A stretch of DNA of 57,495 nucleotides from Desulfovibrio sp. (GTDB lineage Bacteria; Desulfobacterota; Desulfovibrionia; Desulfovibrionales; Desulfovibrionaceae). Both the position numbers and the translations under genes were made by a program. The stretch is from contig JACQYS010000024.1 of the NCBI GenBank assembly GCA_016208105.1, forward strand, positions 1 through 57,495. The letters run 5' to 3'. Numbering within the stretch: the first letter of the stretch is position 1; each line of letters opens with the position of its first letter. Of this stretch, positions 1,407-33,788 are shown piece after piece. The notes below the pieces were generated by a model. That model saw only the letters and a program-made list of their open reading frames with translations. It was not told the origin of the DNA and searched no databases.

Positions 1407-2047
1407 GCCCTCTCCCTGGCCCAGGTTCGCCTGGAAACATAAAAGACCTGGGGCATTGTCTGTTTGTTCGGCAACAGGACAAAGCCTTCCGGATCTACTC
1501 CAAGATGTTCTAGGTTCCCGAACTTTATGGCCCCGGAAGGGCAGGATTCGGCACAGGCCGTGGTGTAGCCGTCCGGCCCGTTCAGCACCAGCCGGTGCGA
1601 ACAGAAGGTGCACTTCTCAACCACCCCTTTGGACCGAACCGAGGCGAACGGAGTGATCGTGGTTTCCATGCCACCGGGCCAGGCCGCAGAGGTCCACGTG
1701 AAGCGCCGCACCCCGTAGGGGCAGGCCTTCATGCAGGAGCGGCAGCCGATGCACCGGGCATATATCTGGCTCACTATGCCTCCCTGCCCGCTCTTCTGGG
1801 TGGCTCCCACCGGGCAGGCCTTCACGCAGGGCGGATTCTCGCAGTGCATGCAGGGTTTGGGCAAATACAGCGCGTCGGACCTGGGGAAAGCCTCACCATT
1901 ATCTTTTTGCGCAACCGTGATCCAATCCGAAGGCCTCTCCAGAGCGGACGGCGGGATGTTGTTCTCCAGGCGGCAAGCGCTGACGCAGACCCCGCACCCA
2001 GTGCAGCGGTCCAGGTCGATCACCATGCCCCATTTGACACCGCTCAT
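1403..2047 (-). CDS. Four-cluster ferredoxin subunit (DmsB/QrcC type)
   Basis: A 214-residue electron-transfer subunit. Four cysteine groups are visible: CTGCGVCVSAC, CMHCENPPCVKAC, CIGCRSCMKAC, and CTFC followed by CAESC. This is the DmsB/NrfC/QrcC pattern for four cubane clusters. It should pass electrons between the cytochrome/Mo-like subunit and the membrane subunit. The start is placed at 2047 because that ATG overlaps the stop of the upstream gene (ATGA), and the stop overlaps the next start (GTGA). No signal peptide is visible, so export would be by hitchhiking on the Tat substrate next to it. Confidence 0.9.
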   Translation of the reverse strand: MSGVKWGMVIDLDRCTGCGVCVSACRLENNIPPSALERPSDWITVAQKDNGEAFPRSDALYLPKPCMHCENPPCVKACPVGATQKSGQGGIVSQIYARCIGCRSCMKACPYGVRRFTWTSAAWPGGMETTITPFASVRSKGVVEKCTFCSHRLVLNGPDGYTTACAESCPSGAIKFGNLEHLGVDPEGFVLLPNKQTMPQVFYVSRRTWARERA

Positions 2048-4206
2048 ATGCGCTCCAGCCTCACCCGGCATCCGGCCCAAACCTCGACTCCGCTTTGGGG
2101 CTCGGTCCAGGTGGACTGAACCCGCCTGGCGTTGGCACCAAGGCCCTCTCCCAGACCCAGGAGAAGCGCGGCATGCCCGTCCGTCACCGATTCATCCAAA
2201 GTCACCAGAGCCTCAAGCCGTCCAGCATGGCTTATCACCCGTACCACGTCCCCGGGCTTCACGCGAACGGTCTTGGCCGTGGCACTGTTCAGCCTGAGAA
2301 CGGATCTGCCATCGCGTACTTCGTCAGAGCGCAGGCTGGTGACGGATTGCAGCGGGACACCGCCGGGCATGCACACGCGCAGACTGGCCTGAGGAGCGAG
2401 CTTCAGCGGAAGCCCCAGGTCGACGGCCTCAGGGATCAACGCCTTGGCCAGAAAGGCCGCCTGGCAGGAAAGCTCGGCCCGTTCAGGCTGCGGATTGACC
2501 CAAAGCTGCCCCTCCACAAGCGACCTCCAGAGATCCGCCTCGGGGGCGGGCTGGGCATCGCCTGCCAGCACGCGCCAGGGAGCGACCTCTCGCGCCACGA
2601 ATCCGCCTGCCCGTTCCATGGCAAGCACCCGCTCCCTGAGAACCTGCCTGAAAGAGGATGGGCCAAGGGGACACTCAAGACGAACGGCAAGTTCAAGCAG
2701 CACGTCGCCAGGGTGGCGGGCGTCCGCCCTGGTGCGCACCAGCGGCCGGGAAAGCCCGTAGCAGGAAAAGGCCAGGCCATACGGGGTGGTCACGTCGTCC
2801 CAGCGTTCCAGGGGCATGGGCGAGGGCAAAACAAGCTCGCACAAGCGGGCCGATGCGGTCATGACCGGAGTGAAAGCCACCTTGAACAATGCCTTGGACA
2901 CGGCCCGGGAAACCAGCTCCGTTTCCGGCAATCCGGCCACCGGATCCGCCTCCACAAGCAAAAGAACATCCGGAGCATCCGCGCGGCCCATGCCCATGCG
3001 CTTGAGCTCTCCCGCCAGACCCAGCTCGCGGTTTCTGGCAGCGGCCAGATGAACCCCGTCCAGGGCACTGGAGAAGGTGGGTGGCTTCGCCCGCAGGTGC
3101 GCTCCGGCAACGCGGCCGCCGCCCTCACCCGGCCACAGGCCGGTCAGGTAGACGCCGCCAGGCCGGTTTACCCTCCCGGTCATGACGGACAGTGCGAATC
3201 CAGCCACCTGCGCGGCCACCCCAAGCCCGTCCCCGCTCTGAGACCCAAGGATCGGGAGGGTTCCTTCGCTAAGGCGCAGGGCCATCTTTCGCAAGACATC
3301 GGGAGCCATCCCGGTGGCGAGACGCACCTCCTCAGGCCCGAAGCGCTGCCGGACAAGGGAAATAAAATCCGACATGTCCCGAGCCCTGCCCGTGACCGGG
3401 CCCATGTCGGCCAGATGCCAGGCCAGGCCCATGGCCAAACTGGCCTGCGCTCCTTCGGGTGCGGGATGCCACTCCCGGCAGAGAGCGGCGGACGCTCCAC
3501 GCACCGGCCCGAGAAAGGCCGAATGCTCGTCCGCGCGCCCGGCCCAAGCCTTTCTGAAGTGCGGGGACGCTGGCATGGATTCGAAAACGTCCGCCCCGAG
3601 AAGCAGGAGTCCGCTGGCGTTGTCCACATCGAAGCCCGGCTGGCAGGCTGCCCCCATCAATGCCATGGCCGAACGTGCGGCAGCCCCCTCTGAAGGCATT
3701 AAATACTGTCTGGATGAGCCCAGCCGATCCATGAAAGCGGCCAGAATGTCCTGCAGCCCCCCCTGGCGAGCGGACCCCACGGACATCACTCTCTCCGGGG
3801 CCAGGCTGATCTTCTCCGTAAGAAGGGCAAGGGCCGCTGCCCAAGAGATGGGTTCAAACACACCCGAGGAATTTTTCTGGAGAGGGCCGCCGACCCTGCC
3901 GGGATGAAAGAGATTATATGCCTCGGCCTGGGCCGGCGGCGTGACTCCCCCCCGGCTCAAGGGATGCGCCGGATTGCCCCGAACAAGAACCGGCCTGCCG
4001 TTTGCCGAGAGCACAGTGATGCCCATGCCAGAAGGGCAGGCCAGACTTACGGTGCTCATTTCCCGCAGGCGCTCGGCGGGCAAGGTTTGAGACTCCTGGC
4101 TAGATCTGGCCAGGTCGCTTCCGGCCCGCCAAGGCGCCGGACTGGCAGCAACTCCGGCCGCCATTCCAGCAGCCAGGCCGATGAATTCTCTGCGCCCGAG
4201 TCCCAT
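2044..4206 (-). CDS. Mo-oxidoreductase-like catalytic subunit lacking the N-terminal Fe-S motif
   Basis: A 720-residue member of the DMSO-reductase/molybdopterin superfamily. It starts with a Tat signal (RREFIGLAAG), so it is folded before export and faces the periplasm. The region that normally carries CxxCxxxC and a later Cys has only one cysteine (LACPSGMGITV), and the usual LCARGQA-like segment reads VTPPAQA. The FS0 cluster is therefore probably absent. QrcB of Desulfovibrio is a known example of such a protein acting without molybdenum in menaquinone reduction. Later parts keep superfamily features such as GRVNRPGG and the C-terminal dinucleotide-binding domain. It starts six bases after the cytochrome gene. 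Substrate unknown. Confidence 0.82.
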   Translation of the reverse strand: MGLGRREFIGLAAGMAAGVAASPAPWRAGSDLARSSQESQTLPAERLREMSTVSLACPSGMGITVLSANGRPVLVRGNPAHPLSRGGVTPPAQAEAYNLFHPGRVGGPLQKNSSGVFEPISWAAALALLTEKISLAPERVMSVGSARQGGLQDILAAFMDRLGSSRQYLMPSEGAAARSAMALMGAACQPGFDVDNASGLLLLGADVFESMPASPHFRKAWAGRADEHSAFLGPVRGASAALCREWHPAPEGAQASLAMGLAWHLADMGPVTGRARDMSDFISLVRQRFGPEEVRLATGMAPDVLRKMALRLSEGTLPILGSQSGDGLGVAAQVAGFALSVMTGRVNRPGGVYLTGLWPGEGGGRVAGAHLRAKPPTFSSALDGVHLAAARNRELGLAGELKRMGMGRADAPDVLLLVEADPVAGLPETELVSRAVSKALFKVAFTPVMTASARLCELVLPSPMPLERWDDVTTPYGLAFSCYGLSRPLVRTRADARHPGDVLLELAVRLECPLGPSSFRQVLRERVLAMERAGGFVAREVAPWRVLAGDAQPAPEADLWRSLVEGQLWVNPQPERAELSCQAAFLAKALIPEAVDLGLPLKLAPQASLRVCMPGGVPLQSVTSLRSDEVRDGRSVLRLNSATAKTVRVKPGDVVRVISHAGRLEALVTLDESVTDGHAALLLGLGEGLGANARRVQSTWTEPQSGVEVWAGCRVRLERI

Positions 4207-8504: not shown

Positions 8505-9664
8505 GGAGCAGTTTTCTCACGGATCGGGGTGACCCAGGCTCCGCTCTTGGGATCGCGCTCGCCCGGTTTGGGCATGTCGGCCTCCAGGAGCGCCCCGGAC
8601 ACCACCCCTCTGGGCGGCTGATGAAAAGTGAGCAACCGAAGCCCCTCGGATGCGCAGGCGTAAGCGCCCTGTCCAGTGGGCAACGGGAAGCGGTGGGAGA
8701 CCACACGAGACTTGGATGCATCGTATGCCGGCGGCTGGGCCGCCATGTGCATGAAGCTCAAGCTGGCCCGGTCTTTGTCCAGGCCGGCCAGTCTGGTGAG
8801 CTTGGCCAGCCAGTCAGGCGCATTCTCAGCCGGGAACACGAAATGACACCAGGAACGCCACCTGGGAGCCAGCATGGGGCATGGGGAATCATGGGTGCAC
8901 GGCGACAAGGGGGACAGGCCCTCTTCCATAAGCATGCCGCGAAGACGCGACAACAAGTTGCCCCCCAGGCGCGTACCGGGCTCCACGAGCAAGAGCCTGC
9001 CCTCGCGGGACAGCCGCCCCGAAAGCATATCCCCCAAACGTTCCAGACCCTGATGCCCCTCCTCCCCACGGCCCTTGGCCAGTTCGTTCAGGGCGTTGGC
9101 AGCCATCAACAGCTGAAAAGGTTCCTGCGGAGCCTTATGGGCCGGGGCCTGGACGAGCTCGATGGTCCAGGATTTCCCTTTGGATCCGGAAACCGCCTCG
9201 AACAAGGCTCGCCCAGCGCGCATGACCTGCCCGGTCTGGTCCACGCAGACCAGCCTGATTTTTCTCTCCCGCAGTTGGGGGCGCGATATCCAGAGGGCCT
9301 GAGCCAGGGTCAGCGGTCCGCATCCCAGGTCCAGCACGCTCGAACCGTCCGGGATATCAAAGTCCAGTCCGGAGAGAAGGCGGGAGAGGCGAAACAGGTT
9401 CCAGGGCAGGAAATAATAAAGGTAGGCCGAGAGATTCGCCGGGGCGGACAAGTAGTTGGCCTGCGGGCCCGGGCCCCGCTCGGCGGTCAAGGCCAGGGAG
9501 AGCCGCTTCACGTCCTGAGGCAGGCCAGCCTTGTGCTTGGCTTTGAGCGGATGCACCCCTTCCAATACCTGGCGATACCCCGCCAAGGCGCTGACCAGAT
9601 CCGGGGAAGGCCTGGAAATGAGCAGAGCGGCACGACGTAGAAGCGCGGCCTGTTCATCCGGCAT
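8501..9664 (-). CDS. Rsm22/METTL17-like protein with predicted Fe-S cysteines
   Basis: A 387-residue SAM-fold protein of the Rsm22 family, whose mitochondrial relatives act in small-ribosomal-subunit assembly. The SAM-binding loop LDLGCGP is at about residues 111-117. The motif PCTHDSPCPM plus a later W-C and a further Cys gives C256, C262, C273 and C337, close to the spacing of the four Fe-S ligands described for human METTL17. The ATG at 9664 has GAGG seven bases upstream; a GTG two codons earlier is too close to that site. It overlaps the RACo-like gene by 11 bases and lipB by four. Bacterial function is not established. Confidence 0.8.
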   Translation of the reverse strand: MPDEQAALLRRAALLISRPSPDLVSALAGYRQVLEGVHPLKAKHKAGLPQDVKRLSLALTAERGPGPQANYLSAPANLSAYLYYFLPWNLFRLSRLLSGLDFDIPDGSSVLDLGCGPLTLAQALWISRPQLRERKIRLVCVDQTGQVMRAGRALFEAVSGSKGKSWTIELVQAPAHKAPQEPFQLLMAANALNELAKGRGEEGHQGLERLGDMLSGRLSREGRLLLVEPGTRLGGNLLSRLRGMLMEEGLSPLSPCTHDSPCPMLAPRWRSWCHFVFPAENAPDWLAKLTRLAGLDKDRASLSFMHMAAQPPAYDASKSRVVSHRFPLPTGQGAYACASEGLRLLTFHQPPRGVVSGALLEADMPKPGERDPKSGAWVTPIREKTAP

Positions 9665-11195
9665 GGGCACACCTCATTGATTCGAGATACATCTTTTGAA
9701 ATCCGGGGAAGGACACCACGTCCACCAACCGGGTCTTTGCCGGAAGCTCGCCAAGCCAGTCGCGGACATCGTACCTGGCGGCGGCCAGACAGGCCCCATC
9801 CAGCGAGGTATTCCCCGCGGCCCGAACTTTGCCCGCGCCTCCCGGCGGCAAAAAGCCCAGGGTTTCCAAATCCGGGGCATGAATGTGCTCGCCCAAGGCC
9901 CCGGCCAGAAACACCGTCGAAAGCCCGCCGTAGGCCATGCCGGCTTCGTGAAGTAAAATCCTGACTGCGGTTTCGAAAGCGGCTTTCACCTTGAGCATGG
10001 CCTCTATGTCGGAGGCGTGGACCAGGAGTTCTCCAACGTTGAGTCGGGGTTCGCCCGAATCCCTCCTCACTCCGGCCAAGATTCGAGCAGCCAGGGGCGA
10101 CGCCGCCTCGCGGGCGAACTGGCCAGCTTCGGTAATGACGCCAAGCGACAAAAGCTTGGCCAACAGGCTTAAGTACCCGGTACCCGAGATGCCCCTGACC
10201 GTTCCGGCACCGCCACCGAAGGGAACCGGCACGAGCCCTCCGGGCGAGAGGCCAAAGGCGACAGCGGCTCCAGGCCCTGCCAGCATTCCCTGGGCCATGC
10301 CCACGCCTTCGAGAGCCGGCCCCATGGGGACGCTGGCCAACAGGAATCGGCCATCGGGCAAGGCCAACGCGAATTCGCCATTGGTTCCGAGGTCGGCCAG
10401 CAGATAGGGCCGGGACGGCTCTGGCCTGGAAAATTCCAGAGCCGCGAGCCCCGCGCTCACGTCCCCGCCAACGAAAGGCGCAATGAGCGGCGGGATGTAG
10501 ACCCCGGGCAGATCGTCGTCAAGGGTTTCAACGCTGCCGCCGGGCCAGTCCACCCGGTACGGCGCGGAAGCCAAGCCTGAGATGTCTTTGCCCAAGGCCA
10601 AATAGGTCATGCAGGTGTTGCCCGCCAGGCAGACAGCTCCGGGAAGGCAGGGCAGGCCGGCCAGGATGTCCCGCACGGCAAAACACACGGCTTGACGCAG
10701 CCGCATGGCGCCATGGGCCGCCCGGGCAAGGGCCAGCCGGGACATCACTTCGGAGCCGGCGCCGAGTTGCGGGTTGCGGAAGGAGCCGGACGTGGACACT
10801 TCCCCTTGGACAAAACGCCAGTGAACGGACGTCGTTCCAAGGTCGATGCCCAGAACGGCGTCGGTACATGACCGGGGAAGAGCGCGGTAAAGAGGCTTGG
10901 ACGGCGCCAAAGTGGCCTCGACCACTGAACCGGGTACTGGGGGACGCTTGCAGGCGAGACGCCACCCCTCATCAAGCCTGCCGGGAGAGAGAATGTCCTG
11001 TTCCTCGACAAGCGGTTCGGGGGGAGTGGTAAGGAACTTCACCTGGCACAATCCGCATCGCCCGGCGCCTGAGCACAATGCCTTGGCCTGGAACGCCCCG
11101 GCGATGAAAAGGTGCTGCGCCAGGGTAAGGCCTGGTACAAGGGGCGCTTCAGATATTGGACCGCCCTTTTTGGCGACAATGCTGAACGTACTCAT
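9654..11195 (-). CDS. RACo-like ferredoxin-ASKHA protein (corrinoid reductive activator family)
   Basis: A 513-residue protein with an N-terminal [2Fe-2S] ferredoxin domain (C41, C47, C50, C82) and a C-terminal ASKHA ATPase-like domain beginning with GIDLGTTSVHW near residue 130 and including LADLGTNGEF. This is the DUF4445/RACo family, which reduces inactive Co(II) corrinoids with ATP. The start at 11195 begins just before the ferredoxin strand; the longer frame adds 18 unlikely residues. It heads the lipB-lipA operon. No corrinoid methyltransferase is nearby, so its partner is unknown. Confidence 0.85.
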   Translation of the reverse strand: MSTFSIVAKKGGPISEAPLVPGLTLAQHLFIAGAFQAKALCSGAGRCGLCQVKFLTTPPEPLVEEQDILSPGRLDEGWRLACKRPPVPGSVVEATLAPSKPLYRALPRSCTDAVLGIDLGTTSVHWRFVQGEVSTSGSFRNPQLGAGSEVMSRLALARAAHGAMRLRQAVCFAVRDILAGLPCLPGAVCLAGNTCMTYLALGKDISGLASAPYRVDWPGGSVETLDDDLPGVYIPPLIAPFVGGDVSAGLAALEFSRPEPSRPYLLADLGTNGEFALALPDGRFLLASVPMGPALEGVGMAQGMLAGPGAAVAFGLSPGGLVPVPFGGGAGTVRGISGTGYLSLLAKLLSLGVITEAGQFAREAASPLAARILAGVRRDSGEPRLNVGELLVHASDIEAMLKVKAAFETAVRILLHEAGMAYGGLSTVFLAGALGEHIHAPDLETLGFLPPGGAGKVRAAGNTSLDGACLAAARYDVRDWLGELPAKTRLVDVVSFPGFQKMYLESMRCAHAG

Positions 11196-11631
11196 TTCAG
11201 TTGACGGGAGGATGCGTGCATGCAGGCAAATTCGCAAGCTTTTTTGCAATCAACTAATAAAAAAACATCTTAATATATACTTTATCTACCTTTCAGCAAC
11301 ACCAACATGTCGCACGAATTTAGCCACTTAGCACATCAAACATCAAATGCCCGGAAAACGCTGGACATTTTTTTCCCAAGCGGCTAAAAGCTGCCCCCAG
11401 GAAGGTAGAAAAGCGAGGCTCCCGGCTGGGTTTGTCCCTACAATGCCGTCCCCGCAAGAGCGTCACTCTTTGGAGCGAGCAAAGCCCCGAAAGACGCAAA
11501 TATCAAAGGGACCTTCCGGACGCCCGAGAATCCTTGGCCCATCATGATGCTGCGGTCTAGCGGCGGGTCTGGATTCTTAACTGAACATGTCTACAACGGC
11601 TTACATCTTCATAAAAGGAGACGAGGAAGAG
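11196..11631. other. Divergent intergenic region, possibly with a structured leader
   Basis: 436 bases between the RACo-like gene and the NlpC/P60 gene. The left part (11245-11300) is AT-rich and should hold the minus-strand promoter. The right part (11380-11570) is GC-rich with several short inverted repeats and would be a leader about 200 bases long for the plus-strand gene. Short frames inside it have no ribosome site or recognisable product. I could not match it to a known RNA family. Confidence 0.5.
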
Positions 11632-23310: not shown

Positions 23311-24438
23311 ATGACGCCCCCTGACCATGCCGCCACAATGAACCACAAGCCCGCAACCACGGGATTGGCCATCACATTATCCGGGCGCCTGGATGCGGAA
23401 GGCGTGACGGTTCTCTGGGATCGAGCGGTTCGCCTGGCTTCAAGCCCTGGCATGGCCCTCACGGTTGACGCCTCCGGAGTAAGCTACTGCGACGGAGCAG
23501 GTCTTGCCCTGCTGGTTGAGCTTCGCCGCAGGGCCGAGTCAGCCAGGGCGGCATTCACCCTTTCTGGATTGGACGATAGATTCCGGGCCCTTTACGACCA
23601 GTTTTCCCCCCAGGACCTCCTTCCCCCGCCCTCCACCTTGAAAAAACCGAGTCTGCCCGAGGAGGTGGGACGCAAGACGTCCATCCTTTTTGACGATATC
23701 TACGCCCAGGTATCCTTTGTTGGAGAATTCGCCACAGCTGTGGTCCGCGCGTTGGCCAACCCGCGCCGGGTGCGCTGGAAGGATGCCGTGTACGTGGCTG
23801 AAACGGCCGGTGCCAACGCGTTTCCCATCATCGTGCTCATCGGGTTCCTCATGGGGCTCATCATGGCCTTCCAATCCGCCATGCCGCTCAAGCAGTTCGG
23901 CGCGGAGATCTTCGTGGCGAACCTTCTGGGGCTTTCGCTCCTGAGGGAACTCGGGCCTCTGGTCACGGCCATCATTCTGGCCGGGCGCTCCGGCTCCTCC
24001 TTTGCCGCGGAGATCGGCACCATGACCGTGAACGAGGAGATCAACGCCCTGGTCACCATGGGTTTGGACCCGGTACGGTTCCTGGTGGTCACCCGGGTGC
24101 TGGCGGCCATGGCCATGACCCCGCTTCTGACCATCTTCTTCAGCGCGGCCGGTTTGGTCGGCGGGGCGCTGGTCATGCTCTCCCTGGGCTATCCCCTGGT
24201 GGCCTTCCTCAACCAGGTGCACATGTCCGTTACCATAAGTGACATGATGGGTGGACTTTTCAAGGCCATGGTGTTCAGCCTTCTGGTGTGCGCCATCGGT
24301 TGCCAGCGCGGCCTGCGCACCCGGGGCGGGGCCAGCTCAGTTGGTCAATCCACCACCAGTGCAGTGGTTTCCGGCATAATCCTCATCGCCGTTGCCGACG
24401 GGGTGTTCGCGGTGGTCTTCTACGTGATGGGGTGGTGA
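23311..24438 (+). CDS. mlaE: MlaE-family lipid ABC permease fused to a STAS domain
   Basis: A 375-residue protein. Residues about 17-105 are a STAS domain like MlaB (VDASGVSYCDGAGLALLVELR), and 130-375 are the MlaE/YrbE permease with ETAGANAFPIIVLIGFLMG and LRELGPLVTAIILAGRSGS. It moves lipids across the inner membrane with MlaF. In E. coli these are two proteins; here they are fused. The stop overlaps the mlaF start by one base (TGATG). The start is uncertain, with 23338 as an alternative. Confidence 0.94.
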   Translation: MTPPDHAATMNHKPATTGLAITLSGRLDAEGVTVLWDRAVRLASSPGMALTVDASGVSYCDGAGLALLVELRRRAESARAAFTLSGLDDRFRALYDQFSPQDLLPPPSTLKKPSLPEEVGRKTSILFDDIYAQVSFVGEFATAVVRALANPRRVRWKDAVYVAETAGANAFPIIVLIGFLMGLIMAFQSAMPLKQFGAEIFVANLLGLSLLRELGPLVTAIILAGRSGSSFAAEIGTMTVNEEINALVTMGLDPVRFLVVTRVLAAMAMTPLLTIFFSAAGLVGGALVMLSLGYPLVAFLNQVHMSVTISDMMGGLFKAMVFSLLVCAIGCQRGLRTRGGASSVGQSTTSAVVSGIILIAVADGVFAVVFYVMGW

Positions 24439-25184
24439 TGGCTGTCCCGGTTATAACCGTCTCCAACCTGACCATGGGCTACGGCGACAAGGTTGTGCTC
24501 AAGGACATCAACTTTTCCGTGCAGCCTGGCGAGGTTTTCGTCATCCTCGGCGGTTCCGGGTGCGGCAAGTCCACGCTCTTAAAGCACATGATCGGGCTTT
24601 ACCCGCCCATGTCCGGCACCATCCGCATCCAGGGCCGGGACATTGTCGCGGCACATGGGCGAGTTCGCCGGGAGATTCTCAGGTCCTTCGGGGTCATGTA
24701 TCAGTCCGGCGCCCTGTTCGGCTCTTTGACGCTTCTGGAAAACATTTGTCTGCCTCTTGAAGAGTTCACCCGTCTGCCCAAGGACGCCCGCGAGGCAGTG
24801 GCCCGATTGAAACTCAAACAGGTCGGGCTGGCCGGTTCCGAGGAGAAGCTGCCCTCCGAACTGTCCGGCGGCATGCAAAAGCGCGCGGCCATAGCCCGGG
24901 CCATGGCCCTGGACCCGGCCATACTCTTTCTGGACGAACCCCAGGCCGGGCTCGACCCGGTCACCTCGGCGGGCATGGACGAGCTTGTCTTGACCCTGTC
25001 CCAAAGCCTGGGCATCACCTTCGTTGTGGTAAGCCACGAGCTTGCCAGCATCTACGCCGTGGCGCACCGCGTCATCATGCTGGACCCCGAAACCAAGGGC
25101 ATCATCGCCGAAGGACCGCCCACCGAGCTTCGCGAACACAGCCCAAACCCCAAGGTCCGTAAATTTTTCAATCGGGAGGCGTAA
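24438..25184 (+). CDS. mlaF: MlaF-type ABC transporter ATPase
   Basis: A 248-residue ATPase that powers the MCE-type lipid transporter. Walker A GGSGCGKST (residues about 35-43), signature LSGGMQKRAAIARA, Walker B ILFLDEPQAGLDP and the switch His in VVVSHEL are all intact. The ATG at 24438 overlaps the mlaE stop, and mlaD follows after eight bases, so all four genes form one operon. Confidence 0.95.
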   Translation: MAVPVITVSNLTMGYGDKVVLKDINFSVQPGEVFVILGGSGCGKSTLLKHMIGLYPPMSGTIRIQGRDIVAAHGRVRREILRSFGVMYQSGALFGSLTLLENICLPLEEFTRLPKDAREAVARLKLKQVGLAGSEEKLPSELSGGMQKRAAIARAMALDPAILFLDEPQAGLDPVTSAGMDELVLTLSQSLGITFVVVSHELASIYAVAHRVIMLDPETKGIIAEGPPTELREHSPNPKVRKFFNREA

Positions 25185-25192
25185 AGCCCGTC

Positions 25193-26185
25193 ATGAGCGT
25201 CCACTCCAACTACTTCAAGCTCGGCCTCTTCATCATAGGCGCCACCTCCCTGGTTCTCGTCGCCCTGGTTTTTTTCGGCTTAGGATCCCTGCACAAGGAC
25301 AAGGTCATGCTCGAGACCTACTTCGACGAATCCGTTCAGGGTCTCGATGTGGGTTCGCCGCTCAAGTTCAAGGGGGTGAAGATCGGTTCCGTGGAGCGCA
25401 TCCGCTTCGTCTTCAACAAATACACCAACTTCAGGGACATACCCTTCCGGTACGTGCTGGTGGAAATGGCTTTGGATCCTGAATCCGCCCTGGCGGTCAA
25501 AAACCGCGACGACATGAAAGACGCCATCCGCAACGAAGTGGAGAACGGCCTTCGTGTTCGAATCGCCCCTCAAGGGCTTACCGGCACCGGTTACCTTGAA
25601 ATGGACTACGTCAATCCACGGGCCAGCAAGCCTCTGCCCATCGAGTGGACTCCCGAATACTTCTATGTGCCTTCCGCGCCGAGCACCATCGCCCGTTTGG
25701 AAGAAAGCTTCGAGACCTTCTCCAAGATTCTGCGCAAGGTTGACGAGGCGGGCGTGGACCACGCCATCCAGAACATCAACTCGCTTCTGGTTGTGATCCG
25801 CGAGGCGGTCAAAGACGCCAACGTGCCCGGCCTTTCCGGCAACGTGGATTCTCTCATCAGCGACCTGCGAAAGACCAACGAGCACCTGAACTCCATGATT
25901 GGCAGCAAGGAAGCCCGTGAAGCTCTGAAAAACCTGGGTGAAACCCTGGTCAACCTGAAGGCTTCCACGGAAAACCTGCCCCAGGCCATCGTCGACCTGC
26001 GCAAGCTCCTCAAAGAATTCAATACCCTCGTGGCCAGCCAGCGCGACGAGGTGCAGGGCCTGCTGCAGCAGGGCAAGCAGATGTTCGAGAACTTAAACGA
26101 CCTTACAGGCGACGCAAAACGCAACCCCTCGCGGCTGCTGTTCGGTGCACCGCCCGCAAAAGCGAATCCGGAGAAGAAGAGATGA
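25193..26185 (+). CDS. mlaD: MlaD/MCE-domain lipid-binding protein
   Basis: A 330-residue inner-membrane protein with one N-terminal helix (residues 8-30), an MCE domain (about 38-120, with VQGLDVGSPLKFKGVKIGSV), and a long helical C-terminal half (about 170-310). MCE proteins form hexameric rings that guide lipids across the periplasm. The C-terminal coiled region is longer than E. coli MlaD (183 residues) and could form a needle-like extension. It overlaps the lipoprotein gene (ATGA). Confidence 0.93.
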   Translation: MSVHSNYFKLGLFIIGATSLVLVALVFFGLGSLHKDKVMLETYFDESVQGLDVGSPLKFKGVKIGSVERIRFVFNKYTNFRDIPFRYVLVEMALDPESALAVKNRDDMKDAIRNEVENGLRVRIAPQGLTGTGYLEMDYVNPRASKPLPIEWTPEYFYVPSAPSTIARLEESFETFSKILRKVDEAGVDHAIQNINSLLVVIREAVKDANVPGLSGNVDSLISDLRKTNEHLNSMIGSKEAREALKNLGETLVNLKASTENLPQAIVDLRKLLKEFNTLVASQRDEVQGLLQQGKQMFENLNDLTGDAKRNPSRLLFGAPPAKANPEKKR

Positions 26186-26805
26186 AAAGAGTAGGCGCCG
26201 CAATTCTCGCCTTGGTTCTCCTGGCCCAGTTCGCCGGATGCGCTCCTTCGCTTTCCCGTCCGGCCGTGGAACGCCGGTTCTACAACATCACGGCCCAGCG
26301 GACGGACGTGGCCGCGCCCCAGCAGGACAAGACCGTGCTCAAGGTGCGGCCCCTGCAGATAAGCCCGGCCTATCAGGGAAAAGAACTGGTCTACCGCCTG
26401 GGCGAGGTGGAGTTCGAGTCGGATTATTACAACGTCCTTTTCGTGCAGCCCTCCAGCAACCTGTCCCAGCAGGTGGAGCAATGGCTGGGCAGAGCCGGGG
26501 TTTTCTCGCACGTGGTGGATTCCACCAGCCAGGTGGCGGACACCCACCTGCTGGAAGGTCTGGTCAACGCGCTGTATGGGGACTTTCGGGACAGGGCCAA
26601 CCCCAAGGCCGTGCTTGAGGTGCAGTTCTTTTTGCTGAAAAACAACAAGAACGAGAACTACTCGGTGGCCTTTTCCAAGTCGTACAAGAAGACCGTGCCT
26701 TTCTCGGCCGGTTTCAAGGACGCCGGGGTGCTGGTTGCGGCGTACAACCAGGCCCTGGCCGAGGTGCTCGCGGAATTGGAGATGGATTTGCGGGGGGCGA
26801 AATAG
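26182..26805 (+). CDS. ABC transport auxiliary lipoprotein (PqiC-like)
   Basis: A 207-residue lipoprotein with lipobox QFAGC at residues 16-20. The body (RRFYNITAQR, LVYRLGEVEFESDYYNVLFVQPS) fits the ABC_trans_aux family, which includes PqiC and acts with MCE transporters at the outer membrane. It overlaps mlaD by four bases. It takes the place that MlaC/MlaA fill in enteric Mla systems, neither of which is in the window. Confidence 0.87.
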   Translation: MKRVGAAILALVLLAQFAGCAPSLSRPAVERRFYNITAQRTDVAAPQQDKTVLKVRPLQISPAYQGKELVYRLGEVEFESDYYNVLFVQPSSNLSQQVEQWLGRAGVFSHVVDSTSQVADTHLLEGLVNALYGDFRDRANPKAVLEVQFFLLKNNKNENYSVAFSKSYKKTVPFSAGFKDAGVLVAAYNQALAEVLAELEMDLRGAK

Positions 26806-26814
26806 AGCGGCGCC

Positions 26815-29481
26815 TCACCCTCGCAACAGCCTAGACACCGCCATACGGATTTCTTCCGGGTCCTCCGGCATCATGGGCTTGGCGAAAGTCACCGTCACCG
26901 TGTGACGTTTGAGCCTGCCGCCCACCGGCCACGCTTCGAACGTGCCCGTTATGGCCGCTGGAACCACGGGGACACCAAGCTCCTTCGAAAGAATCACCGG
27001 TCCTTTCTTGAACTCCTGGAGCTCCCCGGTAACGGTCCGGGCTCCCTCCGGAAACACGCACAGAAGCTTTCCGTGGCGCAGCACGAAGGCGCTCAGGCGC
27101 ATGGTTTCGGAAATCTTTCCGGCATCCACCGCGATAAGGCGGAATCTGGCCGCCAGCCTGCGGATTATTCTCGCCTCGAAAAACCTGGCCAGACCAAGGA
27201 AAAACAGGCGCGTTTTATGCCGCATGGGCGTGGCAGCGAAAATCATGAATCCGTCCAGATAGCTCGCGTGGTTTGGACAGATTATGGCCGCCCCCTCTGG
27301 GATGTTCTCCTGGCCGCGTACCCTCAGACCAAACCCCAATCTGGCAACACTACCGATTAGCCCTGCCAGCATCATAGTGGCGGAACGATCCAGAAGCCCA
27401 ATGTCCAGGCGCACCCTGGCCGCCAAATCAGGCGTCAAACCAGCGTCATGAGCATCCTGGGACGTCTCGCTCGCGCGTTGATCCCTGGTTTTCGGATGAT
27501 CCGTGGGGGCGTTCTTCCTGACAGTTTCGCTTGAGGATTCGCTCGCGAAATCACTGACATACTCCACCACGTCGCGGGCCGTGGCCAGCTGTTGAAAAGC
27601 CTCCTCGGGAACGGAACGGCCCAGATCGTCCTCAAGAAGAGTCAGAAGTTCCAGACGCTTGAGCGAATCCAGGCCAAGATCAAGCTCCAGATGCGAAGAC
27701 GGCGAGATCACCTCCGCACCAGTCACCTCACGAATGGCAGCCAAAGCCCTTTGGCCAGCCTCATCCAATTGCCGCCATGTCTCGCCGCCCGGCTCCGGCG
27801 CGGTCCGCCCCTCGGCCAGCATCTTTTCCACCAGATGGCGCTTGGTCTTGCCCAGCCGCGTCTTCGGGAGCTCTCCCGGCACGATCACAACGTTGCTCAC
27901 CCGCTTGTACGCGGGCAGGTTTCTGGAGAGCACTTCAAGGTCCCAGCGGATGTTGTGGCGCACGTCCGGAGAGTCCGTGACCTTGAAGAATTCCAGGTTC
28001 GGGGTCACCACGGCCCTGAGCGCCCCGCTTTGATCCTGAAGCACGCAGATGTCGCCCACGCTCGGAGCCTGGCGGTAGTGTGCCTCGACCTCTTCGGCAG
28101 GAAATTTCTTGCCGCTTGGCAGCACGATGATGTCTCGTTCGCGCCCGCGCACGAAGAGCAAACCGTCCGGGTCCATCCGGCCCTGGTCGCCTGTGCGGAA
28201 CCAGCCATCCCTAAATGCGTTGGCCGTGGCTTCAGGGTCCTCGAAATAGCCTGGCATGACGTTTTTACCGCGAACCAGTATTTCACCGTACCCCTCGGCA
28301 TCGGGCGCGTCGATGCTGGCCTCGATGCCGGGAAGCGGCACACCAACACTGCCGTGTTTTCCCGTGTCCGGACGGTTGATGCTTATCACCGGGGAGGTCT
28401 CGGACAGGCCGTACCCCTCCAGGACCGGTATCCCCAGGCTGGCCATGCCACTCATCACTTCAGGCTCGCACTTGGCCCCGCCGGTGATGAAGAAGCGAAA
28501 ATCCGGCCCCAGACCACGTCGCACGGCCCGGCGCAACGGCCCCAGCGGGTCCGGGCGCAATCCGGCGGTGGCTGACAAGAGCTTCTGAAGACCCTGACCC
28601 AACCCAAAGGGCAGGTCCTCGAAGCGTTTGCGGATGCGCCGGAAAAACACTCCCACATATTGCGGAGTGAGCACCAGCATGCTGACCTGGGCCTTCTTGA
28701 GAGCGGCCAGTATGGCCTCGGGCATGAGCGTCTCCACGTAGGTGGTGCGCACCCCGAGCAGAAGCGGCACGAGCAGATTCACCATGCAGGGGTAGGCATG
28801 GTGCAGGGGCAGTACGGCCAGAAAGTTGTCAGTGGGATAGAGAAGCCCGGTCGCAAACACGCTGGCCACGTTGGCCAGGAGGTTCTCGTGCGTGAGCATG
28901 ACGGCCTTGGGCCTTCCCGTGGTGCCGGAGGTGAAGATGAGAACGGCCACGTCGTGGGGTTCGGCAATATGGATGTCCGCTTCTGAAAGCGGCTCGTGCG
29001 ACAGCGCCTCTTCCAGGCCGCGAGCCAGAACGCAATCCGTTGGCGGATCATCAGAGAACGTTTCGGGATGGGAGGCGAGAACCAGGCGGGCACGGCACTT
29101 CTGCACGTAATAGGCCGCATCGGCTGGCACGGATTGGACATCCACCGGCACCGCCACTCCGCCGGACAGGATGATTCCGAAATAGGCCGCGCCCCAGGCG
29201 GGAGAATTCTCCAGGCTCAAGACAACCGGGTCCCCTGGCGTGAGCCCCTTCTCGCGCAGCCAGGCCGCCACGCGCAGGGACATGTCCAGAAAGCCCCGGC
29301 GGTCCATATCCGCAAAGGTCCCATCCGTGCGGGCCAGGCGCAAAAACCATGCGCCGCCGTACGACTCCACGGCGGCCAGCAGGGCCTGGCCCAAGGTGCC
29401 CGTGTCTAACACGGAGGACGAGTGTTTCACAGCGCTGCCAAATTCCACCGATTCGTGCCAGGCTTCAGAGGCACCGGGCAT
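26815..29481 (-). CDS. Trifunctional acyl-AMP ligase, acyl carrier domain and PlsC-type acyltransferase
   Basis: An 888-residue three-domain protein. Residues about 30-600 are an acyl-adenylating ligase (IFTSGTTGRPK near 183, YGLSETSPV, FRTGDQG). A carrier domain follows with the phosphopantetheine serine in LGLDSLKRLELL, then a glycerol-3-phosphate-type acyltransferase with NHASYLDG (HX4D) and PEGART. It could activate a fatty acid, load it on its own carrier domain and pass it to an acceptor. The start is uncertain: GTG 29535 and ATG 29520 lie inside the decarboxylase gene, while ATG 29481 follows its stop by 16 bases; none has a strong ribosome site. Probably cytoplasmic or membrane-associated. 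Confidence 0.88.
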   Translation of the reverse strand: MPGASEAWHESVEFGSAVKHSSSVLDTGTLGQALLAAVESYGGAWFLRLARTDGTFADMDRRGFLDMSLRVAAWLREKGLTPGDPVVLSLENSPAWGAAYFGIILSGGVAVPVDVQSVPADAAYYVQKCRARLVLASHPETFSDDPPTDCVLARGLEEALSHEPLSEADIHIAEPHDVAVLIFTSGTTGRPKAVMLTHENLLANVASVFATGLLYPTDNFLAVLPLHHAYPCMVNLLVPLLLGVRTTYVETLMPEAILAALKKAQVSMLVLTPQYVGVFFRRIRKRFEDLPFGLGQGLQKLLSATAGLRPDPLGPLRRAVRRGLGPDFRFFITGGAKCEPEVMSGMASLGIPVLEGYGLSETSPVISINRPDTGKHGSVGVPLPGIEASIDAPDAEGYGEILVRGKNVMPGYFEDPEATANAFRDGWFRTGDQGRMDPDGLLFVRGRERDIIVLPSGKKFPAEEVEAHYRQAPSVGDICVLQDQSGALRAVVTPNLEFFKVTDSPDVRHNIRWDLEVLSRNLPAYKRVSNVVIVPGELPKTRLGKTKRHLVEKMLAEGRTAPEPGGETWRQLDEAGQRALAAIREVTGAEVISPSSHLELDLGLDSLKRLELLTLLEDDLGRSVPEEAFQQLATARDVVEYVSDFASESSSETVRKNAPTDHPKTRDQRASETSQDAHDAGLTPDLAARVRLDIGLLDRSATMMLAGLIGSVARLGFGLRVRGQENIPEGAAIICPNHASYLDGFMIFAATPMRHKTRLFFLGLARFFEARIIRRLAARFRLIAVDAGKISETMRLSAFVLRHGKLLCVFPEGARTVTGELQEFKKGPVILSKELGVPVVPAAITGTFEAWPVGGRLKRHTVTVTFAKPMMPEDPEEIRMAVSRLLRG

Positions 29482-29497
29482 AAAGAGAGAGACTTGC

Positions 29498-30793
29498 TCA
29501 CGTCCAAAAATCCACCACATCCTGAACGCTCTCACGCTCTTTTAAGACCAAAACCCGCCCGCCTGTAATGCCTATCACCTTGGGCATCTGGCGGCTGTTG
29601 TAGCGCGACCACATGGCGTACGTGTAGGCCCCTGCGTCCAGGACCAGAATAAAATCCCCGGGAGTCATGTCCGGCAGGGATCTGGATTTGGCAAGGAAAT
29701 CGCCGGAAAAACACAATGGGCCAGCTATGTTCCAGGAAGTCCCGGGCCCCTCTTTGAGTGTTCCGTCAGGTCTGGCGACGGCGAACTCGTGCTTCCAGGT
29801 TTCAGGCGCGTAGCAGGTCCGCAAAAACATGTCCGCGCCAAGGTGGATAACGGCGGTCCGGTGCCCGGGCTGCTCCTTGACATATTCCACCCGGCTCGCG
29901 GCGAATCCCTGGTTGGCGAAAACCCATCGCCCGAACTCGGTAAAGATCCTCACCCGCCCGGCAAAAAGGCCGGGGCACTCCCGCCTCAGGGCTGCGGCGT
30001 ATTCGCCCATGCTGGGAGCGACGTCTTCTCGGCTGTAGGCAACTGGCAATCCGCCGCCGACATCCACGCGGACCACCTGTTCGCGCCCGCAGGCCGTGTT
30101 GATGGCCGAGCGCAATTCCATGAGGATCTTCGCTCCATGCGTGAACAGCTCAAGCCCGCACCCCTGTGACCCTACGTGCATGTGCAGGCCCGTGAGCCAC
30201 GGACGGCGCGCATACGCCTCCACGATCTCCTTTCGTTTGGCCACCGGTTCGCCGAATTTGGAGTATTCCCCGGCCACGCTGGTGGCCGCGATGGTCCCCT
30301 GCCCCACCTGGGGGTTCACCCTAAGCCCTATGGTGGCGCGGAGAGATTCCCCGGCGGTCAGGGCGTCCAGCCGGTCAAGTTCCTGGAAATTGTCCGCATT
30401 GATGTGGACGCCGTGTGCCAGGGCCTGACGCAGCTCGGAAACCGTCTTGGCCGGGGAATCAAACACTATGCGCTCCGGCGGACAGCCTGCGGCGAGCGCC
30501 AGATGCAGCTCAGGGAGAGACGCGGCCTCCAGTCCGGCTCCGAGCGCAACGAGGCGGTCCAGAACGGAAGGCATGGGCATGGCCTTCACGGCCACGGCAT
30601 GGAGCGCGTCCGGAGGGAAGAGTCTTAAAAGCTCACTGTATCTGGCGCCCAGACCGTCGAGATCGTAACAGAGAACAGCGGTATCGTCCTCGCCGATCAC
30701 GCCCTGAGCGAGCGCTAAAGCCAGGGAGTGACATGCCCTGCCCGCTGATTCCGGCAGGGCGTCACTTGCGACAGAGAACGCGTCTTCGGTCAA
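29498..30793 (-). CDS. Type III PLP-dependent decarboxylase (LysA-like)
   Basis: A 431-residue alanine-racemase-fold decarboxylase. The PLP lysine is in HAVAVKAMP, with the phosphate-binding DVGGGLPV, HMHVGSQG and the active-site Cys region GPLCFSGD. It resembles diaminopimelate decarboxylase, but its operon partners (acyl ligase-ACP-acyltransferase and HD-GYP regulator) do not fit lysine synthesis. A related decarboxylase/acyl-ligase pair is known from exosortase-A polysaccharide clusters. The start overlaps the HD-GYP stop by four bases (ATGA). The substrate is unknown; ornithine, lysine, arginine or a modified amino acid are possible. Confidence 0.88.
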   Translation of the reverse strand: MTEDAFSVASDALPESAGRACHSLALALAQGVIGEDDTAVLCYDLDGLGARYSELLRLFPPDALHAVAVKAMPMPSVLDRLVALGAGLEAASLPELHLALAAGCPPERIVFDSPAKTVSELRQALAHGVHINADNFQELDRLDALTAGESLRATIGLRVNPQVGQGTIAATSVAGEYSKFGEPVAKRKEIVEAYARRPWLTGLHMHVGSQGCGLELFTHGAKILMELRSAINTACGREQVVRVDVGGGLPVAYSREDVAPSMGEYAAALRRECPGLFAGRVRIFTEFGRWVFANQGFAASRVEYVKEQPGHRTAVIHLGADMFLRTCYAPETWKHEFAVARPDGTLKEGPGTSWNIAGPLCFSGDFLAKSRSLPDMTPGDFILVLDAGAYTYAMWSRYNSRQMPKVIGITGGRVLVLKERESVQDVVDFWT

Positions 30794-32133
30794 TTCGCGG
30801 CGTCCATGTCGAAGCTGAAGCGTCCCGACTCAAACAGCTGAATGCATACATCCACCGCTTCCGCCAGATAGAGGTTCGCCCGGTTTTTCCTGATCTCCCC
30901 CAGGGCGCGATCCAGGCCCAGAGCGGCACGATAGGGTCTGTGCGAACTCATGGCCTCCACCACATCGGCAACCGCGAGAATATTCGCCTCTTCAAGGATT
31001 TGGCCGTTGGAAAGCCCGCCAGGATACCCGGAGCCATTTATCCGTTCATGGTGCTGCAGGACGATGTCAGCCACCGGCCAGGGGAAGGGGATGTTCTTCA
31101 AGATGTCGTAACCGACCTCGGAATGGGTTTTGATGAGCCCCATCTCCATGGCGGTCAAGGTGGCTGGTTTTGCCAGTATTTCCGCCGGGATATAAATCTT
31201 GCCGATATCATGGAGAAGCCCGGCGACGCGCAGCCCTTCCAGGCGTTCCTCGTCGAAGCCGAGTTCCTGGGCGATGGCCCCGGCCAGGGCAGCCACCCGC
31301 TGCTGGTGGCCAGCAGTGTACGGATCGCGCTTTTCAGCGGTGACCGCCAGGGCCTGCACGGTGGCCTCCAGGGTCCGCCTCAGGCTGGACACGTATTGCC
31401 GCAAATTCTCCTCGCCCTTAACGCGGTCGGTGATGTCCCGGATGACCAGCACGTTGCCGATATTCACACCCCAATCATCGATGATCGGCGAGTTGATAGT
31501 CTCGATGGGTACGGACTCCCCTTTGGCCCTTTCGAATGTGCATGTATGGCTGCCCAGCTTGGTGAGGCATTCGTCGGTTTGCCGGATAAGATCGGTGACC
31601 GATTTGTCCTTTGCATCATCCAGCGAAACTCCCAGCAATTGTTCGGCCACGGGATTCAAGAATTTCACCCGCCCGTCCGGCCCTGTGGTGACCACCGCCT
31701 CGCCCAGGCTTTTAAGCGTCGTGGCCAGAAGCCTTTTGGAAAGAATCAACTCCCGGTCGGTTTCGAACTTGTAGACTGCCATCTCGATGGTGGTCTGGAG
31801 CTCGCGGTCCTCGAAAGGCTTTATGACGTAGCCGAACGGGTTGGTTATCTTGGCCCTCTCCAGGGTCTGCTGGTCAGCGTATGCGGTCAGATAGACCACT
31901 GGGATGCCGAAATTGTCGTTAATTATCCCTGCGGCTTCGATACCGTCCATCTCGCCTTCCAGCATGATGTCCATGAGGATGAGGTCGGGCTTGAGCTTGC
32001 CGGCCCGATCCACGGCATCTTCCCCCGTGGAACAGACCGAGAGGACCTCGTACCCCATGTGCTTCAGGCGGTTTTGTATGTCCAGGGCGACGATTGCCTC
32101 GTCCTCGACCACCAGTATCCTGTGCTTTTGCAT
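30790..32133 (-). CDS. Response regulator with PAS and HD-GYP domains
   Basis: A 447-residue protein: receiver (residues 4-120, VVEDEAIV, LILMDIML), PAS (about 135-240, VKFLNPVAEQLLG) and HD-GYP (about 255-430). The phosphodiesterase motifs LLHDIGKIYIP and HHERINGSGYP are present; the usual DG of HHExxDGxGYP is NG here. HD-GYP proteins degrade cyclic di-GMP or related dinucleotides. The ATG at 32133 has GGGAG before it. It is first in the operon with the decarboxylase and ligase, so phosphorylation and second-messenger signalling may control that pathway. Confidence 0.93.
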   Translation of the reverse strand: MQKHRILVVEDEAIVALDIQNRLKHMGYEVLSVCSTGEDAVDRAGKLKPDLILMDIMLEGEMDGIEAAGIINDNFGIPVVYLTAYADQQTLERAKITNPFGYVIKPFEDRELQTTIEMAVYKFETDRELILSKRLLATTLKSLGEAVVTTGPDGRVKFLNPVAEQLLGVSLDDAKDKSVTDLIRQTDECLTKLGSHTCTFERAKGESVPIETINSPIIDDWGVNIGNVLVIRDITDRVKGEENLRQYVSSLRRTLEATVQALAVTAEKRDPYTAGHQQRVAALAGAIAQELGFDEERLEGLRVAGLLHDIGKIYIPAEILAKPATLTAMEMGLIKTHSEVGYDILKNIPFPWPVADIVLQHHERINGSGYPGGLSNGQILEEANILAVADVVEAMSSHRPYRAALGLDRALGEIRKNRANLYLAEAVDVCIQLFESGRFSFDMDAAN

Positions 32134-32243: not shown

Positions 32244-33179
32244 CTAGGACATCAGTTCCTTCAGCGCGTCCGCAATTCTTGGATGCCTGAACTCGAATCC
32301 CAGCTCCACAAGCCGCTTGGGAAAGGCCAGGCAGCCAGACAGCAAAAGCTCGTCGGCCATGCTCCCAAAAAGTAGCCTGAGCGCTGCCGACGGAACTGCT
32401 AGACCACAAGGCCGAGACAGTGCCTTGCCCAAATACTGGCAGAATTCCAGGTTGGAAACACCCTCAGGGGAAGTGAGGTTGAACGGTCCCAACGCATCAG
32501 CCCGCTCCATGAGAAAGATGATCGCCCGTACCTCGTCTTCCATATGGATCCATGGGAAGCCCTGGCGTCCATTGCCCAAAGGCCCTCCCATGAACAGTTT
32601 GAAGGGGGTGAGCATTTTCTGGAGAACCCCGCCTTCGCGCCCGAGAACCATGCCCGTGCGGATGACCGCCCGGCGCACCCCCATGTTCGTAGCTTCGCGC
32701 GTGGATTCTTCCCACCTGAGACAAATTTCCGTCAGAAAGCCTCTGCCTGGCGGGGAATCCTCGTCCACCGGATTGTCGCCGGTGTCCCCATAATAACCCA
32801 CCGCGGAAGCCTGGATCAGAACCGAGGGTTTCACGGACGCGCTGGACACAGCTTCGAGCATGGCCTGACCAGCGCGGATCCGGCTTTCAAGTATTGAGCG
32901 CCTTCGCATAGGCGTCCAACGCCCATCGGCGATTCCTTCCCCGGCCAGGTTCACCAGGGCGAAGGCGCCGTCAGCCAGATGGCCCCACCCCTTGGAGGTC
33001 TGCCCGTCCCAGGTTTCAAAGGCCGGGAGCGCGCCCTGGGGGGCGACCGAGACAGTCCTTGGCCTGCCGCGCGTCAAAGCCACCACCTGATATCCCCGTG
33101 CGAGAAGCGCTCGGCAAAGATATCTCCCGATGAAACCGCTTCCACCGGAAACGACCACGCGCCGGTTTTCAGTGTTCAT
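32244..33179 (-). CDS. TIGR01777-family NAD-dependent epimerase-like protein (YfcH type)
   Basis: A 311-residue Rossmann-fold protein. It opens with VVVSGGSGFIGRYLCRAL, has VNLAGEGIADGRW and the YYGD of SAVGYYGD, and ends with the family's DUF1731-like C-terminus (ELGFEFRHPRIADALKEL). Substrate is unknown for the family. The ATG at 33179 has GGAGG six bases upstream. It is 48 bases after the DUF4390 gene and probably co-transcribed with it. Confidence 0.92.
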   Translation of the reverse strand: MNTENRRVVVSGGSGFIGRYLCRALLARGYQVVALTRGRPRTVSVAPQGALPAFETWDGQTSKGWGHLADGAFALVNLAGEGIADGRWTPMRRRSILESRIRAGQAMLEAVSSASVKPSVLIQASAVGYYGDTGDNPVDEDSPPGRGFLTEICLRWEESTREATNMGVRRAVIRTGMVLGREGGVLQKMLTPFKLFMGGPLGNGRQGFPWIHMEDEVRAIIFLMERADALGPFNLTSPEGVSNLEFCQYLGKALSRPCGLAVPSAALRLLFGSMADELLLSGCLAFPKRLVELGFEFRHPRIADALKELMS

Positions 33180-33227: not shown

Positions 33228-33788
33228 TCAATAGGAGAAGTCGAGTTGGTATATCGCAGGAGGAATCGCGTCAAAATTCCAAAAGAAAAGCGCCCCTTTG
33301 AGAAAAGATGACACGTCCTGGCGCACCAGGCGGATCTCAAGGGTAAGCGAGTAGGCATTGCCTCGGGAGAGCTGATCCCACCCGCCGAGGTCCATGGACA
33401 TGGCCCCCCACGCTTCCTTCATAAGCAGTGGAAGACTCCGGCCCCGGTAGTGCTCTCTCGAAGTTCCCGGGTGGAGAATCTCGTACGGGCCGCCGTCGTG
33501 CAAAATAAGTTGGCTCAAAAGCGTGGCTTTGGACACGCTGGAATTCCAGGCATACGTGCGCTTTTGCGAAAGCCTGGCCTTGCATTCCAAGGCCAGCACC
33601 TCGCCCTTCTCGAGTGCTCCCCGGACGATATCCTCGCCCTGAATGTCCACACCAAAACGCACCTTGACGCGGCCCTCGTGGTTGTCAATCACCAGGTTCG
33701 TCAGGCCAATGCGCTGGGCGCGCGCATCCCCCCAACAAGCTGTCGTGGAAGCAACAAGGAGAAGAAGGATAAAAACGGCGCGACGCAT
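33228..33788 (-). CDS. DUF4390 family exported protein
   Basis: A 186-residue protein with an N-terminal signal sequence (residues 1-24) and conserved DUF4390 features such as LTNLVIDNHEGRVKVRFGV and the C-terminal NAYSLTLEIRL. The family is found mainly in proteobacteria, with function unknown; in some genomes it lies beside a NtrY-like sensor kinase, which is not the case here. The ATG at 33788 has AGGA six bases upstream. Confidence 0.8.
   Translation of the reverse strand: MRRAVFILLLLVASTTACWGDARAQRIGLTNLVIDNHEGRVKVRFGVDIQGEDIVRGALEKGEVLALECKARLSQKRTYAWNSSVSKATLLSQLILHDGGPYEILHPGTSREHYRGRSLPLLMKEAWGAMSMDLGGWDQLSRGNAYSLTLEIRLVRQDVSSFLKGALFFWNFDAIPPAIYQLDFSY

Follow-up and report, generated by a model that had tools for sequence, protein, structure and literature searches.

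Do three genes that overlap or nearly touch on one strand make up one pathway? The question is raised by a 57,495-nucleotide stretch of Desulfovibrio sp. DNA (assembly GCA_016208105.1, contig JACQYS010000024.1; hereafter the window), where a REC-PAS-HD-GYP response regulator is followed by a LysA-like pyridoxal phosphate (PLP) decarboxylase (PLPdc) and by a single protein with adenylating ligase, phosphopantetheine carrier and PlsC-type acyltransferase domains (the ligase protein). A sequence-only reading of the window had joined the three into a single route, and Pfam confirmed all the open reading frames (ORFs), their shared strand and their domains. Our comparisons suggest that the genes are separately evolving parts and not one lipid-making pathway, and we consider it probable that three modules were brought together in this lineage, among them a PLPdc that has switched substrate and a ligase protein that is Aas-like.

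Conservation of the three-gene arrangement

Gene content was compared across 247 genomes, an even draw from the larger order, with six from the window's genus and 241 from outside it. PLPdc orthologues were found in 22 genomes (E <= 5.2e-122; best other match 1.4e-48), each of which also carries at least one further homologue, and the ligase in 11 (E <= 1e-90). Both occur together in three genomes, all of the window's genus; outside the genus PLPdc is present in 16/241 genomes, the ligase in 8/241 and the two together in none. All six genus genomes have the order DUF4390-YfcH-HDGYP-PLPdc beside Mla genes, with PLPdc closely behind HD-GYP, so that this part of the proposed coupling held. The ligase lies at the locus in three of the six, and the other three keep PLPdc without it. 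The congeners thus do not confirm a coupled set of three, and conservation of the ligase as a neighbour is likewise lost in the 16 PLPdc-bearing genomes outside the genus.

The wider PLPdc family was sampled as the best 80 of 445 stretches in named bacterial genomes, recovered with the patterns MWSRYNSR or HxH[VI]GSQGC. Searches of these 80 loci with the window's domains (tblastn) found ligase and carrier in one locus, a PlsC homologue in three and an HD-GYP homologue in five. The single ligase-bearing locus, L067, is counted in both of the latter; its record is titled Desulfovibrionaceae bacterium, it is close to the genus (PLPdc 70% identical), and its ligase is adjacent to PLPdc. A midpoint-rooted tree built from 29 decarboxylases places the loci with a ligase in a single group inside the genus (86/86; 82% of bootstraps), a moderate support that falls below the strong-support mark. 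Since the PLPdc genes with a ligase cluster in this way, the tree is consistent with a single gain of the ligase as the simplest account.

These distributions bear directly on the single pathway of the sequence-only reading, where the amine released by PLPdc would be acylated by the ligase-loaded PlsC domain, to yield an N-acyl amine or aminolipid, with control by cyclic di-GMP (c-di-GMP). The tight gene order in the window, in two congeners (G183 and G202) and in L067 speaks for it, as do the catalytic motifs. Against it stand the congeners that keep PLPdc without a ligase, the lack of co-occurrence outside the genus and in 79 of the 80 family loci, and the ligase homologues in genomes without PLPdc, some of them near phospholipid genes. 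PlsC-type domains with an HX4D motif, moreover, usually make esters. We therefore regard this pathway as unlikely; the gene-order and distribution comparisons found nothing that ties the PLPdc amine product to the acyl carrier. Within the genus, production of the amine may share its control with HD-GYP.

The lasting partner of HD-GYP is the YfcH-type gene upstream of it. Among 32 genomes of our choosing, 22 have a near-full-length HD-GYP match, and in 20 of these 22 the gene is adjacent to YfcH on the same strand, separated by 23-170 bp, including seven genomes without PLPdc. In two Solidesulfovibrio-like genomes HD-GYP is ~200 kb from PLPdc. Two HD-GYP orthologues each contain one in-frame stop (G212:C1:127419-128756 and G116:C1:3492507-3493844), reflecting sequencing error or decay.

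The ligase protein has a distribution of its own. Eight order genomes outside the genus encode homologues that cover most of its length, and the four that were scanned share the ligase-carrier-PlsC domain order; proteins built in this way occur in four other genera. The single-chain architecture had been called unusual, and it is not unique. Close to one homologue (L150) lies a cyclopropane-fatty-acid-type synthase, the two being separated by a sigma-factor-like ORF; by sequence reading alone a similar synthase gene lies in L153, and a third homologue (L151) adjoins a PLD/VTT protein. A second copy of the ligase domain was not found in the window's genome (E <= 1e-20). As in Aas, a ligase and a PlsC domain share one chain, and the protein stays below the curated cutoffs of both Aas models, PRK08633 (236.2 bits, its best NCBIfam match; cutoff 1221) and PRK08043 (143.5 bits; cutoff 886). 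Because of this best match, the phospholipid genes near some homologues and the convergent Mla operon, Aas-like recycling of acyl groups into phospholipid is the likelier role. A literature search returned no on-topic description, judged by title, of an AMP-ligase/carrier/PlsC protein.

From these patterns we propose the following assembly. The first module would be an old pair, the YfcH-type oxidoreductase and the REC-PAS-HD-GYP protein, the latter a predicted phospho-regulated c-di-GMP phosphodiesterase. PLPdc, from a patchy LysA-derived family, would have been placed directly behind HD-GYP in this genus and be translated immediately afterwards. The Aas-like enzyme, probably gained late, would adenylate a fatty acid and load its own carrier domain, from which the PlsC domain would pass the acyl group, most likely to a lysophospholipid, beside the Mla transport genes.

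The decarboxylase and its predicted substrate

PLPdc had been left open to the possibility of being the genome's sole lysA, acting on diaminopimelate (DAP) alone. It is not the housekeeping gene: its best curated model is lysA (TIGR01048), which it matches at 252.5 bits, below the cutoff of 297.9, while a separate canonical lysA on another contig (C10), beside a mutS-like gene by reading, scores 545.4 bits. The predicted PLPdc model (pLDDT 86) is closest in fold to DAP decarboxylases, followed by D-ornithine/lysine decarboxylase, ornithine decarboxylase and BtrK (7ru7, rank 26, TM 0.81/0.84). A structure-sequence search matched 2yxx, which we take to be the DAP decarboxylase of Thermotoga maritima (TmDAPDC).

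An alignment of 102 rows (98 distinct core sequences, numbered from the TTG start) shows K70, R289, R325, W333, C361, F362 and W395 to be invariant. The catalytic PLP lysine and the loop cysteine of LysA (K70 and C361) are thus present throughout, and the distal-amine glutamate of the LysA C-E-[ST] motif is absent: position 362 is Phe in 102/102 family rows and Glu in 8/8 LysA rows, with Glu at the same loop position in five solved DAP decarboxylases shown aligned. Position 395 is Trp in the family and Ser or Ala in the eight LysA rows, an invariance that is partly built in because the search patterns include this residue; F362, K70, R289 and R325 lie outside the patterns. The loop reads GPLCF in 80/80 family loci, and three actinomycete plasmid records of 41-45% identity also have C-F (GPACF, GPCCF).

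In the part of the TmDAPDC study that was available to us (PMC8277567), the distal amine is recognised by Glu315 of the other subunit, and the distal carboxylate by Arg249/Arg285. Activity on D-phenylalanine appeared in the variants E315F and E315L, and according to the authors it requires a hydrophobic residue. Judging by the E-x-G-R motif and by a spacing of 36 residues, as counted in the LysA of the window's genome, Glu315 would map to F362 and the arginine pair to R289/R325. With Glu replaced by Phe and both distal arginines retained, the family has the look of an active enzyme whose grip on the distal amine is gone, with an acid-binding pocket preserved and aromatic residues added, and we predict that its substrate has changed from DAP. 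PLPdc would form an aldimine through K70 and decarboxylate another alpha-amino acid, one that is acid-tailed or hydrophobic/aromatic, possibly with a D centre, because Phe stands in for the amine-gripping Glu and both carboxylate-gripping Arg stay. Further than this we go only tentatively, in suggesting an unrecognised natural LysA-fold family in which the single Glu-to-Phe loop change would switch specificity to a free acid-tailed or aromatic/hydrophobic substrate, perhaps of D configuration, in the manner imitated by the engineered variants, and which in some lineages would act together with an undescribed fold-type-I PLP enzyme from a gene just upstream.

PLPdc could instead be a second DAP decarboxylase and so a redundant lysine gene, as its best curated model, its best folds and the retained distal Arg pair would allow, and as the weak DAP activity kept by TmDAPDC E315F would also permit (PMC8277567, in the part available). 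Its sub-cutoff lysA score next to a canonical lysA, the invariant Glu-to-Phe change, and Trp395 where LysA has Ser or Ala make this improbable. Very improbable is a BtrK-like role, in which PLPdc would act on an amino acid loaded onto a carrier by the ligase protein: BtrK is a fold neighbour that decarboxylates the carrier-bound glutamyl-BtrI (PMC7857480, as far as the available text goes), and the ligase-carrier protein adjoins PLPdc in the window and three relatives, but ligase or carrier homologues lie near PLPdc in 1/80 family loci (by window-domain queries, which distant carriers would escape), the best named models of the ligase are fatty-acid or acyl ligases, and PLPdc retains the Arg suited to a free distal carboxylate, a residue absent from three TIGR03099-type members.

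Those three decarboxylases, two above the TIGR03099 cutoff and one below it, read GPLCTPLD at the loop and have no counterpart of R325. TIGR03099 models the exosortase-A-associated decarboxylases, and the comparison with exosortase-A clusters had been drawn by the sequence-only reading. Its statement that no exosortase is present was borne out for the whole genome (PF09721, 0 matches at E <= 0.001; control matches in 1/14 genomes), while the decarboxylase likeness proved weak, with PLPdc at 137.8 bits against a cutoff of 478.45 and with the loop and Arg differences just given.

Several other roles for PLPdc were rejected. Polyamine models score far under lysA. A sulfonium substrate (S-methylmethionine), considered on account of the aromatic residues, is disfavoured by the conserved pocket Arg, which argues against a cation. 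VlmD (valine decarboxylase), which we had presumed to be LysA-like, was dropped as a characterised relative. In the available part of PMC7794544 it was modelled on GAD67, the closest PLP template and of another fold; the part of PMC9643649 at hand is silent on its fold. BurB offers no precedent for S-methylmethionine decarboxylation, as it is described as methylating methionine (PMC12542666).

A number of observations weigh against a modular string with a substrate-switched PLPdc. The ligase follows PLPdc in the window's genome (G000) as well as in G183, G202 and L067, with 67-68% protein identity retained, and this persistence could be explained by a functional tie. HD-GYP is only ~7-9 kb from PLPdc in at least five Solidesulfovibrio-like genomes, and there is thus an older, looser regional linkage between the two. 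The pairing of HD-GYP with YfcH has exceptions: YfcH is elsewhere in two of the 22 near-full-length genomes (G096 and G100), seven of the 32 surveyed have no HD-GYP match (E <= 1e-60) and three have a partial one. Phospholipid genes accompany some ligase homologues only, others having signalling or unrelated neighbours. The residue map to TmDAPDC was drawn from a motif and a spacing and not from a direct alignment. Finally, TmDAPDC E315F is weak, with 4.1 mU/mg on D-Phe and 36 mU/mg on DAP (wild type, 675) in the part of PMC8277567 available, and since it still turned over DAP, Phe at this position need not by itself abolish DAP activity.

Distribution of the family, gene neighbours and gene calls

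The PLPdc family is patchy and multi-phylum; judged by record titles it reaches at least eight groups of phylum level, though many named records are metagenome bins and titles may be wrong. The titles of the 80 loci include Bacteroidota, Zixibacteria, Calditrichota, Ignavibacteria, Anaerolineales, Rhodothermales, Gammaproteobacteria, SAR324, Sorangium/Paraliomyxa and Desulfobacterota. Its patchiness follows from a phylum sample, where only 2/297 genomes, the window's own included, have PLPdc (E <= 1e-80). A literature search covering open-licence papers showed no description of the family among the matches listed, and on D-amino acid decarboxylases the matches listed held an engineering paper but, by title, no natural family of this kind.

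Neighbours of PLPdc vary by lineage. A protein of 489-721 aa (c35) lies upstream in 6/80 loci from several phyla by title, directly so in five and with one ORF between in L123. It had no match in Pfam (0/2 scanned) or NCBIfam (0/3 scanned) and no solved relative by sequence (E <= 0.1); its model resembles fold-type-I PLP enzymes, and it is possibly an undescribed PLP enzyme family working with PLPdc. As a partner in the window's genome it was discarded, with matches in 0/247 order genomes (E <= 1e-10), a set that contains no known matching genome. TauE/SafE-type exporters are close to PLPdc in two unrelated lineages (L085:2870-3598 and L105:9245-10003), and reading of the sequence alone points to a third in L049. 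A carbonic anhydrase and a CitMHS-type transporter lie just upstream of PLPdc in L041 (6758-8929, scanned there only), with counterparts in other Solidesulfovibrio-like loci; for a CO2-releasing enzyme the carbonic anhydrase may be meaningful. Genes resembling MqnB and MqnD of the futalosine pathway are directly upstream of PLPdc in L074 (6356-9287, scanned there only) and in similar loci, and MqnB/MqnD gene clusters recur (c3 in 24/101 loci, c2 in 25/101). A role in menaquinone synthesis was set aside, as one cluster only shows these neighbours, and we know of no step in menaquinone synthesis that calls for a PLP decarboxylase.

The features of the locus are listed in Table 1. Pfam scores were 231 bits for AMP-binding, 42 for PP-binding and 82 for the PlsC-type acyltransferase in the ligase ORF; 141 for Orn_Arg_deC_N and 48 for Orn_DAP_Arg_deC in PLPdc; and 74 for Response_reg, 33 for PAS_9 and 131.6 for HD_5 (PF13487) in the HD-GYP protein. 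The ligase protein contains TSGTTG in its ligase domain, GLDSL with the carrier Ser, and HASYLD and FPEG in the PlsC domain. By reading, the HD-GYP translation has the HD and HHExxxGxGYP motifs of this phosphodiesterase class as HDIGK and HHERINGSGYP, which we take to be the catalytic ones.

Table 1. Features of the locus in the window, and c35 proteins upstream of PLPdc in six family loci (locus:positions)
Feature	Position	Strand	Evidence
AMP-dependent ligase - phosphopantetheine carrier - PlsC acyltransferase (predicted Aas-like)	26815..29535	-	PF00501, PF00550, PF01553; motifs
LysA-like PLP decarboxylase (PLPdc)	29498..30793	-	PF02784/PF00278; C-F loop (C-E in LysA)
REC-PAS-HD-GYP response regulator, predicted c-di-GMP phosphodiesterase	30790..32133	-	PF00072, PF13426, PF13487
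YfcH/TIGR01777 NAD-dependent epimerase-like protein, upstream of HD-GYP	32244..33179	-	TIGR01777 313 bits, cutoff 207.35
DUF4390 protein, upstream of YfcH in 6/6 genus genomes	33228..33788	-	PF14334
Mla-like phospholipid ABC transport genes, convergent with ligase	23311..26805	+	Four genes
Mla-like STAS-permease	23311-24438	+	Translation read; tblastn conservation in congeners
Mla-like ATPase	24288-25184	+	Translation read; tblastn conservation in congeners
MlaD	25193-26185	+	PF02470
Mla auxiliary lipoprotein	26182-26805	+	PF03886 25.1 bits (cutoff 26); NF047772 141.4 bits (cutoff 250)
c35 protein	L085:3624-5738		
c35 protein	L090:3991-5598		
c35 protein	L092:1081-3243		
c35 protein	L119:6505-7971		
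c35 protein	L123:1701-3266		
c35 protein	L127:6356-7930		

The genes had been described as overlapping or nearly touching, which stands for HD-GYP and PLPdc, where the TGA stop of the former and the TTG start of the latter overlap as TTGA and not as the ATGA first read. Two congeners do have ATGA at this junction, and the remaining ones have their nearest plausible start 3-41 nt past the stop, so the tight spacing holds across the genus. The 38-nt overlap between ligase and PLPdc hinges on a GTG start at 29535. Two of the three ligase-bearing relatives have candidate ligase starts 39-81 nt past the PLPdc stop, with one extra GTG candidate at -3; none was found in the third, L067. Given these positions and the onset of homology at residue 35-47, an ATG near 29481 is the likelier true start, which would remove the overlap.

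Elsewhere in the window, RACo-type ASKHA corrinoid-activator domains are found at 9657-11249, the minus strand carries four consecutive tRNA genes at 208-618, and a 720-aa ORF at 2047-4206 with no Pfam match (E <= 1e-8) may be a real, uncharacterised protein.

Relation to known systems

As this case shows, genes that overlap and run in the same direction in a single genome can be unrelated modules that were joined recently. PLPdc-family genes are also liable to be named DAP decarboxylase, as both of the annotated plasmid records examined are (Streptomyces and Arthrobacter; C-F loop, 41-45% identity), and thereby to enter metabolic models as false lysine genes. Should the Glu-to-Phe prediction be true, it would supply a one-residue rule of substrate choice for a large enzyme fold, and the family would offer natural amino-acid decarboxylases with possible D selectivity.

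Of the systems to which the string can be compared, the REC-PAS-HD-GYP response regulators have the same domains and signature motifs as the window's protein, the sole difference being its downstream neighbour in this genus. The ligase protein resembles Aas (acyl-acyl carrier protein synthetase/lysophospholipid acyltransferase) in joining a fatty-acid ligase and PlsC in one chain; unlike Aas, it has the order ligase-carrier-PlsC with a built-in carrier, and it scores far below the curated cutoffs. The TIGR03099 decarboxylases and BtrK belong to the same fold superfamily as PLPdc and work outside lysine and polyamine synthesis (for BtrK, PMC7857480, in the part available), but where the PLPdc family has GPLCF and R325, the three TIGR03099-type members read GPLCTPLD and lack the Arg. 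LysA has in common with PLPdc its fold, the catalytic Lys and Cys and the distal Arg pair, and differs in the distal-amine Glu that is Phe in PLPdc and in the Ser/Ala that is Trp at 395. The engineered TmDAPDC E315F/L enzymes resemble the predicted switch, with a hydrophobic residue at what would be the same position and a gain of activity on hydrophobic D-amino acids (PMC8277567, in the part available); they are weak products of a single laboratory change, whereas PLPdc stands for a family found in nature, in which many residues co-vary.

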